Below, in pieces: positions 1-2,950 of a stretch of DNA of 64,000 bases. Each line of letters starts with the position of its first letter. Within the stretch, counting starts at the first letter, position 1. The DNA lies in contig LNEO01000197.1 in the NCBI GenBank assembly GCA_001465015.1, forward strand, positions 31,937 through 95,936, in the 5' to 3' direction. Source of the DNA: Deltaproteobacteria bacterium Ga0077539 (GTDB taxonomy: Bacteria > Myxococcota_A > Polyangia > Polyangiales > Ga0077539). A model generated the notes under the pieces. It was not told the DNA's origin, did no database searches, and worked only from the letters and a program-made list of their open reading frames with translations. The position numbers and the translations under genes are program-made.

Positions 1-400
1 CGTCCACGAGCGGTCCCTCGAGCACGCGCGCATCGGCCACGTCCGGGATCCGATCGCGCCAATCTTTGTTGTTCATCGCCGCTTGCAGCATCGGCGCGAG
101 GCGGACATCGCGCCGGCTGGCGACAGAGAGCAGCCAGAGGTACAGCGTCTCGCCGGCAGGCTCGTTGAGCAGCGCGACGAGCTCTTGCGTTCCGCTGTTC
201 GAGCGCGTGAGCGCCGGGAGGGCGCGATCCAATACCTCGGCCGCCGGTCGGACGCTCGGGTCGAGCTGTCGCTCGGGTCCGTCGTAGTGGGGTCCCTTCC
301 ACCACGCAAGGAGCGACGCCCGCGACTCCGCTGGGTCCTCACCGGATTGAATGTGCTGCGTAAGACGCGCGAATGCGTCGCGAACTGTCGAAGCGAGCAT
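1..400 (-). CDS. hypothetical protein, C-terminus truncated by window edge
   Basis: Manual reverse-complement translation from ATG at 400: MLASTVRDAFARLTQHIQSGEDPAESRASLLAWWKGPHYDGPERQLDPSVRPAAEVLDRALPAL..., open to the window start with protein-like composition. The ORF track does not list it as a complete ORF. Confidence 0.7.
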   Translation of the reverse strand, partial: MLASTVRDAFARLTQHIQSGEDPAESRASLLAWWKGPHYDGPERQLDPSVRPAAEVLDRALPALTRSNSGTQELVALLNEPAGETLYLWLLSVASRRDVRLAPMLQAAMNNKDWRDRIPDVADARVLEGPLVD

Positions 401-519: not shown

Positions 520-1967
520 ATGGACCTCGCGAAGCTGCTGTTTACCATCAAGCCCTTGCTCGGGGATGTGCGCGCCAACTTCGGCAAGATCGTCGAGTTG
601 CTCGAGAAGCACGACGACCTCGCCGAGTACGACGTCGCGCGATTCTACGTGAGCAAAGCGATTCGACCGGCGATCGAAGACAAGCTGTCGTCTCAGGATC
701 CCCGAGATCGGACCGCCGCGACCAAGAGCATCCCGAAGCTGCTCGGTAAGTCCGAGGGCGCCTCGCTTCTGCGGCGCGTCTACAAAGATTCGTCGCCGAC
801 CGTGCGCAGCGCCGCCCGCGCCGGTGTGTACGCCCTCGGGATCGAAGAGGTCGCGCTTCCCGACTCGCGCTTTCCCGCGCCTCGCAACGACTGGCAGCGG
901 CAAGGCGGGTGGAACGAGACCGGATGGGCCTTCGGCCTCAGCGACTCGCGCGCGCGAAAGCCCAAGCGTCGCGTGCCCGATGACATCGCCGAGGTGCGAA
1001 AGGTCTTCAAGGACCTGCAGACCGGCGACGACGTCGCCAAGGCGCTGGGGATGAAGAAGGCCAAGGACTTGAAGGCCCTGATGCGCGCGGGCAATCAACC
1101 CGGCTCGGGGTACGTCGAGTTTACGGTCCCGAAGGCCACTGGCGGCGTCCGCACGATTTGCGCGCCGCGAGCGCCGCTCAAGCGCGTGCAGCGGACGATC
1201 CTTCGAGAGCTGCTCTCGAAGGTTCCGAGTCACCCTGCCGCACACGGATTCATCAACGGCAGGTCCGTCGTCAGCAACGCCCGTCCGCACGAGGGCGCCA
1301 AGATCGTGGTCAAGGTCGACCTCAAGGACTTCTTTCCGACGGTGCACTTCTACCGGGTCGCCGGGACGCTTCGGTACCTGGGGATGGGGGAGGCCGCGGC
1401 TGCGGCCCTCGCCGCGATCGTGACACACAGAAACAAGATGCCCGACGGCACCGTGGTGATGCCCGGAGCGCTCCCGCAAGGCGCGCCGACGTCGCCGGCG
1501 ATCACCAACATCGTTTGCCGTCGGCTCGACGCGCGACTCGAGGCGCTCTCCAAGAAAGCGGGAGCCACCTATACGCGGTACGCCGACGACCTGACGTTCT
1601 CGTTTCGCGAGGAGCCGACCAAGGGCGTCGGGCGCTTTTTGTGGTGATCCAGCAAGAGGGCTTCGTGCAAAACGCCCCCAAGCGCAGGGTTCTTCGCGGC
1701 TCGAACCAGCAGCGAATCACGGGCGTCGTGGTCAACAACGGTCTGAGCGTCCCTCGTGACGCGCGCCGACGCTTTCGCGCGATCCTCGAGAACATCCGTC
1801 GCACGAGCGTCGAGGAGCAGGCCCGCGGAAAGACCGACTTCAAGGCCTACCTCAAGGGCTTCGCTTCGTACGTGAAGATGGTGCAGCCCGAGGTCGGCAA
1901 GAAGCTGATGGAAGAAGTGCACTCGGTGCTCGCGGAGGACGTGCGCAAACGAGGCGCCGCGAAGTGA
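520..1967 (+). CDS. retron-type reverse transcriptase with HEAT-like N-terminal extension; reading frame broken by a 1-nt shift near 1636-1641
   Basis: Frame of ORF 373..1647 from ATG 520 (RBS-like ggggaga upstream) gives KVDLKDFFPTV, NARPH (NAxxH), GALPQGAPTSPAITN and YTRYADDLTFS. The protein continues in the ORF 1158..1967 frame as VVIQQEGFVQNAPKRRVLRGSNQQRITGVVVNNGLSVPRD... Confidence 0.88.
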
Positions 1968-2950
1968 GCCGAGAGTCCGACGCGCTCGCAGAGGTGCTCG
2001 CGGCGCCGGACGACGATGTTCCGCGGATGGGGTACGCGGATCTGTTGGTGGCGCGAGGCGATCCGCGTGGGGAGTTCATTCGGATCCAGTGCGCGATCAG
2101 CAACGGGGACGTCGAGTACCTCGAGAAGAAAGAGCTCCGCGAACGCGCGGCGAAGCTGCTATCGGAGCACGGAAAGGGCTGGCTCGAGGCGGCGGGGCTC
2201 ACTGACAAGATCGAGGTCGAGTGGCGCCGCGGGTTCGTCGACGTCGTGTCGTTGACCGGCGAGCAGTTCGCTGGTGAGCTCGGCGAGGCGCTGTTCGCGC
2301 GCGAGCCCGTTCGCCACGCGTGCATCCGAGTCAACTCCGAGCGCGTCGCGAAGCGGATCGGCGCTGCGCCACATCTGTCGCGGCTGACGGCGCTCACGCT
2401 CGAGGGCCTCTCGGGAGGCTCTGTGCTCGAGCCGATCCTCGCCGCCGACCTCTCTGCCCTTCGCGCCGCCAATTTCGGAACGATGGTCGACCCCGAGTCG
2501 TTGCCCACCGTCACCGGCGCTCGTTCGCTCGCCAACGTCGAGCGTCTGTCGATTTCGGGCTCGGATATCGGCGGCGAGTTCGCCGGTGCATTTCGGGACT
2601 GGCGCCTCGTCTCGCTGCAGACGCTCTTTGCGTCGCGCTGCGGCCTGCTCGACTCGGACCTCGCGGCGATCGCGAAGAGCGACGCGCTCTCGCAGCTCGT
2701 CACGCTCTGCGTCGCGCGCAACGAGTATGGCGCGACGGGCCTGCGCGCGCTCGTCGACAGCCCCAACTCCGCGACGCTCGAGTCGCTCGAGATCGACCTG
2801 TGCAACGCCGAAGCGATGACGCTGCTCGCGGAGTGCAAGGGGCTCGCGCGACTTCGTCGAGTGATGATCGCCGGCTACGAGTATCGCCTGCCGGCGGACC
2901 TTCGAAAGCGGTTGAAGAAGCGCTTCGGACGCGGCCTGCGATGGGACTGA
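1964..2950 (+). CDS. TIGR02996-like N-terminal domain plus leucine-rich-repeat protein, translationally coupled to RT
   Basis: GTG start overlaps the RT stop by 4 nt (GTGA). N-terminus DALAEVLAAPDDDVPRMGYADLLVARGDPRGEFIRIQCAI resembles the TIGR02996 repeat-companion domain, followed by LRR-like segments. Confidence 0.85.
   Translation: MSRESDALAEVLAAPDDDVPRMGYADLLVARGDPRGEFIRIQCAISNGDVEYLEKKELRERAAKLLSEHGKGWLEAAGLTDKIEVEWRRGFVDVVSLTGEQFAGELGEALFAREPVRHACIRVNSERVAKRIGAAPHLSRLTALTLEGLSGGSVLEPILAADLSALRAANFGTMVDPESLPTVTGARSLANVERLSISGSDIGGEFAGAFRDWRLVSLQTLFASRCGLLDSDLAAIAKSDALSQLVTLCVARNEYGATGLRALVDSPNSATLESLEIDLCNAEAMTLLAECKGLARLRRVMIAGYEYRLPADLRKRLKKRFGRGLRWD

Follow-up and report, generated by a model that had tools for sequence, protein, structure and literature searches.

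Genes of the RT locus and the frameshift in the RT

Near the start of the window (i.e. the whole stretch of 64,000 nucleotides analysed) lies a gene for a reverse transcriptase (RT), followed on the same strand by a gene for a protein with a TIGR02996 domain and leucine-rich repeats (LRR). The pair is flanked by a divergent and a convergent gene. Table 1 lists the coordinates of these features and of RNA arrays detected in other genomes.

Table 1. Features of the RT locus and tandem RNA arrays (positions without a locus name are those of the window)
Feature	Position	Strand	Remarks
Divergent gene, 5' end	2..400	-	The G001 protein has 1107 aa and a Ser/Thr kinase domain at its C-terminus; complete gene in L036, 4049-7372 (-)
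RT gene, first part	520..1647	+	Start ATG 520; residues 1-375, with NARPH and YADD; out-of-place stop TGA 1645-1647
RT N-terminal region, all-helical, HEAT-like	520..837	+	Residues 1-106 of the intact ortholog model (AlphaFold2); weak HEAT_2 match
Site of the 13-nt deletion causing the frameshift	1646..1647	+	Relative to five orthologs
RT gene, remainder in another frame	1644..1967	+	Encodes ITG and the C-terminal part; ends with TGA 1965-1967
TIGR02996/LRR protein gene	1964..2950	+	328 aa, intact; start GTG overlaps the RT stop
Gene for a protein of 261 aa	2955..3740	-	Convergent with the LRR gene; also present next to RT-LRR in G001, G002, G006 and G005
Tandem msr-msd units beside the HEAT-AKR gene	L074 4331-5497; L075 4913-5591; L068 5073-5583; L066 4856-5231; L060 2290-2847		Strongly divergent msd hairpins, spacing about 160-180 nt

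The motifs NARPH (1276-1290), YADD (1579-1590) and ITG (1716-1724), as well as the overlap of the two genes (GTGA, 1964-1967), had been reported in an earlier sequence-only reading of this DNA; all were found at these positions in the window, and the RT matched the RVT_1 profile (E 2.8e-18). That reading had assigned the motifs to one RT. Its view of the enzyme as retron-type could be upheld (see below), but the window copy carries a frameshift: YADD is read in frame with ATG 520, and ITG in another frame. The two halves match the same PADLOC profile at adjoining positions (up to 327, then from 332). Five orthologs, with identities of 88, 83, 59, 56 and 44% to residues 1-375 of the window RT, each have a single uninterrupted frame, and their alignment revealed that the loss of 13 nt is private to the window. 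Programmed frameshifting was rejected, since the orthologs have one frame and 13 nt are missing from the window. In the closest ortholog the stretch missing from the window ends with GGTG, i.e. the four bases preceding the window junction, which makes a slippage deletion a plausible origin of the loss. A metagenome assembly error is another possible source.

No intact RT was found in the window, and a search of the source assembly revealed no second RT of the same clade. Because of the frameshift, the retron system described below may be off in the sequenced strain, unless the deletion is an assembly error; the broken RT is itself a point against the explanation favoured below. The deletion, which removes the C-terminal part of the RT, and the lack of another clade RT in the assembly would also fit a locus in pseudogene decay that no longer has a function. 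We consider this conceivable but hardly probable, as the LRR gene, the HEAT-AKR gene and eight RNA copies (see below) are still intact or structured, implying very recent decay, and an assembly error is possible. Among plasmids and phages no match covered 80% of the RT, and carriage on such elements was rejected.

The divergent gene is a neighbour of the RT-LRR pair, with a kinase domain (PF00069, E 6.5e-30) and weak HEAT similarity. The 261-aa protein had no match in Pfam, NCBIfam or PADLOC. Its gene is retained beside RT-LRR in G005 although the outer flanks differ there, and it is possibly a fourth member of the system, in this family only.

Placement of the RT and its protein partners

The RT is almost certainly a retron RT. 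The nearest solved structures by sequence are the RTs of retrons Ec67 and Ec86, and a Foldseek search with its fold placed retron RTs at ranks 1-18, with the RTs of diversity-generating retroelements (DGRs) far below. The NAxxH, YADD and VTG-type motifs are present in the orthologs, and in the window are split over the two frames. The best PADLOC family was RT_XIII, matched only from profile position about 92-110 onwards and with about 355-382 bits, compared with 472-637 bits for members of type XIII. In a tree of 76 RTs, 39 clade members formed one group (SH-aLRT 99, stem 0.39), sister to type XIII (86). Filing the system as type XIII was rejected, given this separate sister clade and the partial profile match; the explanation that we favour as a whole, and consider probable, is a retron subtype that has no name yet and is the sister of type XIII.

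The clade occurs in Myxococcota and Planctomycetota, and its second subclade is mostly of Planctomycetota. Of 318 genomes of the class searched with a profile, 27 contained a clade RT, with a clear gap in scores: clade members, including the frameshifted window copy, reached 558 bits and above, and everything else 328 and below. The window genome also carries two true type XIII retron RTs (contigs C259, L001, and C109, L003; 497 and 522 bits to RT_XIII). In the literature covered, nothing was found that pairs a retron with TIGR02996, LRR, HEAT-AKR or FGE; the main retron classification lay outside this coverage, and an earlier mention of the clade is possible.

The protein encoded next to the RT bears out its description in the sequence-only reading. 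The TIGR02996 profile matched it above the family cut-off (E 2e-11), and its AlphaFold2 model (pLDDT 91.5) comprises a helical N-terminus followed by ribonuclease-inhibitor-type LRRs, for which Foldseek returned NLRP3, RNase inhibitor and NOD2. Since no catalytic or enzyme domain was found in it, the role of sensor fits this protein better than that of effector, the two having been offered together in that reading.

The association of the two genes was surveyed by scanning 84,980 species genomes, combined with whole-genome searches and profile searches of RT flanks. An LRR gene of the same family adjoins the RT in 16 genomes of several families. Thirteen of these loci have both genes on the same strand, mostly with an overlap of 4-8 nt with the RT stop; the other three (two of Enhygromyxa and one of Plesiocystis) are convergent, with the genes about 1.1 kb apart in one of them. 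As the window genome contains only two TIGR02996 matches, the adjacency is not a by-product of the abundance of this domain, and a chance LRR neighbour was rejected, given also the recurrence of the pairing in 16 genomes. In the best tree of LRR proteins, in which the grouping has a support of only 46/77, the RT-adjacent ones form one group (1 change vs 10.3 when shuffled). The LRR gene is thus associated with the RT in relatives, and the RT falls among retrons. The pair proposed as a module in the sequence-only reading is therefore real and recurrent, but it is not the whole system: the LRR is lineage-specific, the near-universal partner is another protein (HEAT-AKR), and the RNA lies elsewhere in the window genome.

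In the mostly planctomycete subclade, the position of the LRR gene is occupied by a gene for a protein of the FGE-sulfatase/SUMF1 fold (PF03781, E 1e-34 to 1e-39). As judged from gene content, the LRR is the partner specific to the Myxococcota lineage, with an FGE/C-type-lectin fold in the mostly planctomycete branch. Neither neighbour was seen in Polyangium and some other clade members, and roughly half of the class's clade genomes have no LRR, which counts against our preferred explanation. By analogy, LRR and FGE may be interchangeable ligand-binding folds, and they are the likeliest recognition modules of the system; for the LRR itself we regard this role as an even call.

FGE/C-type-lectin proteins are typical targets of DGRs (PMC7159879), which raises the question of a DGR-like system mutating its FGE or LRR partner. 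We consider this highly improbable, since the RT groups with retrons both by sequence and by fold, a retron-type RNA is present, and no TR/VR-like repeat was found. DGR was rejected after a search for direct repeats of at least 40 nt, none of which occurred in L071 or the window, while L069 contained one 70% pair that is not TR/VR-like.

The constant partner is HEAT-AKR, a protein of roughly 700-1000 aa with HEAT repeats and a C-terminal aldo-keto-reductase-like domain. Where linked, its gene lies upstream of the RT gene, and in Planctomycetes it is divergent from it. HEAT-AKR was present in 25 of the 27 RT-bearing genomes, but in only one of the 291 others (Fisher p 1e-33); this single genome of the class set with HEAT-AKR and without a clade RT is G265 (contig C13, L241). 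In the family of the window genus, genomes that lack the RT also lack HEAT-AKR. In the window genus the two genes are not linked: HEAT-AKR is on contig C140 in the window genome (G000), about 635 kb from the RT in G001, and on contig C22 in G002. Since the co-occurrence persists without linkage, the genomic distribution argues for a functional dependence between RT and HEAT-AKR. A different split was observed in Plesiocystis (G210, contigs C229 and C70), where HEAT-AKR is on the other contig and the RNA and the convergent LRR gene stay with the RT.

Active aldo-keto reductases have a catalytic Asp and His. In HEAT-AKR the corresponding sites are occupied by the conserved FFWEP and FLLFW, so that the protein is probably not an active reductase. 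Stand-alone AKR-like relatives in the genus are also degenerate. Three HEAT-AKR proteins had no match in PADLOC, HEAT-ARM_XIII included, and the one of L076 gave one weak repeat match. No recognised toxic enzyme was found among the partner proteins, a further point against the preferred explanation; by analogy with known retrons, HEAT-AKR is the best candidate for the regulated partner.

The msr-msd RNA and its dispersed copies

Aligning the gaps between the HEAT-AKR and RT genes revealed a conserved RNA element of about 150 nt, for which Rfam held no matching family. It consists of (i) a 5' arm of 12-15 nt, (ii) a AGCNNAGC core, (iii) a fixed stem-loop (CCGCGATG..ACGTCGCGG), (iv) a long variable hairpin, (v) a GCAAGTAGC core and (vi) a 3' arm. 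This is the anatomy of a retron msr-msd, as read from the sequences: an a1/a2 inverted repeat enclosing msr and msd hairpins. RNAalifold on a MAFFT alignment recovered the msr hairpin only. Since the arms are too divergent to align, their pairing was tested within each sequence. The a1/a2 arms diverge widely among species and yet pair, with -23.7 kcal/mol for cognate and -11.4 kcal/mol for non-cognate combinations; the own partner ranked first in 19 of 26 cases and within the first three in 24. In the planctomycete copies all 11 a1/a2 pairs vary on both sides somewhere, and the covariation (0.445) exceeded that of shuffled sequences (0.190; 0/500) and of slid controls (at most 0.242).

With covariance model R1 the RNA was detected in all 27 genomes with the RT and, marginally (E 0.0098), in one of the 291 others, a co-occurrence that is partly circular, because the training set included many of the same genomes. 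Genomes G122, G139 and G149 and most of the dispersed copies were outside the training, and genomes with type XIII RTs alone were negative. With untrained genomes positive and type XIII-only genomes negative, the RNA, on the evidence of these searches, accompanies the present RT, rather than the type XIII RTs found alongside it in some genomes. Nannocystaceae genomes of group g138 (11-13 Mb), possibly of Nannocystis, that lack this RT gave no match with the RNA model.

In most other clade members the RNA adjoins the RT. It does not do so in the window genus, nor, as far as the contig allows judgement, in G122. The model search detected no copy in the window, and an msr-msd directly 5' of the window RT was rejected, as relatives have only 68-128 nt there. 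The window genome contains eight RNA copies, one of them after the HEAT-AKR gene (C140:26635-26794) and seven scattered over contigs C192, C206, C141, C350, C409, C279 and C399; several copies are also present in G001 and G002. The scattered copies are situated between ordinary genes, with no neighbour in common, and several occupy orthologous sites in the three genomes. The copies L255, L256, L261 and L264 have the inner msd sequence GCTTCACGGGC...GCAGGCCCTACAA, or one closely similar, in common, and their outer parts differ. In the window genus the system is thus split, by its genomic arrangement, into RT plus LRR and HEAT-AKR plus RNA.

The dispersed copies could be retrotransposed or duplicated relics, with only the copy adjacent to HEAT-AKR in use. 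Scattered msr-msd has a precedent in Nannocystis, whose Ne160-type repeats are duplicated away from an RT and have been read as possible retrotransposition (PMC6868368). Some of the present copies (L254, L255, L261 and L262) have weak arms; most, however, retain cognate arms and hairpins. Moreover, when the fold was taken from one copy alone, the orthologous copies displayed 25 compensatory pairs, where 7.2 +/- 2.2 were expected (no more than 16 in 1000), and broken pairs numbered 42, against 70 expected (minimum 55). We consider the relic reading unlikely, and the dispersed RNAs are probably used in trans by the RT.

Multiple units also occur side by side. Two RNA copies follow HEAT-AKR in G006, with the divergent kinase gene between them and the RT, and Polyangium members have two copies in tandem. 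In the other branch, arrays immediately 3' of HEAT-AKR consist of divergent units, of which L074 has up to about seven, L075 four, L068 three and L066 two. A regex scan for such arrays was unspecific (22 matches, 10 in reversed controls) and was replaced by model R2. With R2 itself, L074 yielded four units, L075 two complete ones and a partial one, and L068 and L066 two each. It is tempting to view these RNAs as one divergent family served by a single RT and HEAT-AKR, i.e. a multi-template, trans-acting retron whose msDNA repertoire is read through an exchangeable LRR or FGE protein, although we hold this only tentatively.

Proposed function and relation to known systems

What the sequences establish is the gene architecture, the covarying RNA, the co-occurrence of the components, their splitting and the copy numbers. 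These findings are probably best explained by a split retron, with one RT serving several RNAs in trans and HEAT-AKR acting together with an LRR or FGE sensor; from this we infer msDNA synthesis, trans use, complex formation, sensing and defence. A complete set would comprise an RT with a HEAT-like N-terminus, one or more msr-msd RNAs, HEAT-AKR and a lineage-specific recognition protein. As in retron biology generally, the RT would prime from the msr G and copy the msd into msDNA, and several RNAs reverse-transcribed in trans would yield different msDNAs. The RT-msDNA would bind the partner proteins, the RT-msDNA-HEAT-AKR complex being held inactive, and the LRR or FGE protein would sense a ligand, so that the complex would respond to a phage-induced change, as in known retrons. 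With multiple divergent msDNAs, a cell might have decoys or sensors for a range of phage factors.

By analogy, an antiphage role is slightly favoured. The vertical, syntenic inheritance within the genus, unlike the patchy spread of many defence systems, speaks against it. Alternatively, the retron may have been domesticated for a physiological function, the RNA copies acting as regulatory or structural RNAs or as msDNAs, with RT, HEAT-AKR and LRR in the same role. This would accord with an RT locus and several scattered RNAs kept at orthologous sites across species with their structure maintained, and with partners devoid of toxin-like enzymes. We nevertheless consider it rather unlikely, as the presence of the RT at the class level is patchy (27/318 genomes), and every retron of established role known to us acts in phage defence.

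The usual picture of a retron is a compact cassette in which one RT is combined with a single ncRNA and a single effector. If our explanation is correct, the present subtype would unite conserved, multi-copy, trans-encoded ncRNAs with a HEAT scaffold that bears an AKR-like pseudoenzyme and with exchangeable partners of the LRR or C-type-lectin fold, adding partners that the searched libraries do not list. The failure of locus-based scans to detect such systems would then be understandable, the long-standing question of scattered msDNA-like repeats in myxobacteria could be put to the test, and RTs possibly able to use several templates in trans would become available.

The closest known system is retron type XIII (PADLOC RT_XIII with HEAT-ARM_XIII), which shares a sister RT with NAxxH and VTG-type motifs, a HEAT-type partner and a common occurrence in Myxococcota. 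The present clade differs in (i) its partial RT_XIII match, (ii) HEAT-AKR in place of HEAT-ARM_XIII, bar the one weak match, (iii) its own ncRNA family and (iv) the LRR or FGE partner. Retrons Ec67 (Eco2) and Ec86 (Eco1) resemble it in RT fold and motifs and in the msr-msd anatomy with a1/a2 arms, but have effectors of the Toprim or nucleoside-deoxyribosyltransferase type and one ncRNA in cis, instead of HEAT-AKR with LRR/FGE and several ncRNAs. Another parallel is offered by the DGRs that diversify FGE-fold effectors (PMC7159879), in which an FGE/C-type-lectin-fold protein is again encoded near an RT and the hosts have multicellular habits; here, the RT is of a different class, the RNA is retron-type and no TR/VR repeats were seen. 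Finally, Retron-Nex1 (msDNA Ne160) of Nannocystis exedens (Lampson and Rice 1997, cited in PMC6868368) also has several msr-msd-like copies with no RT within a kilobase, whereas the copies described in this study go together with a defined RT and with HEAT-AKR, and display compensatory change.
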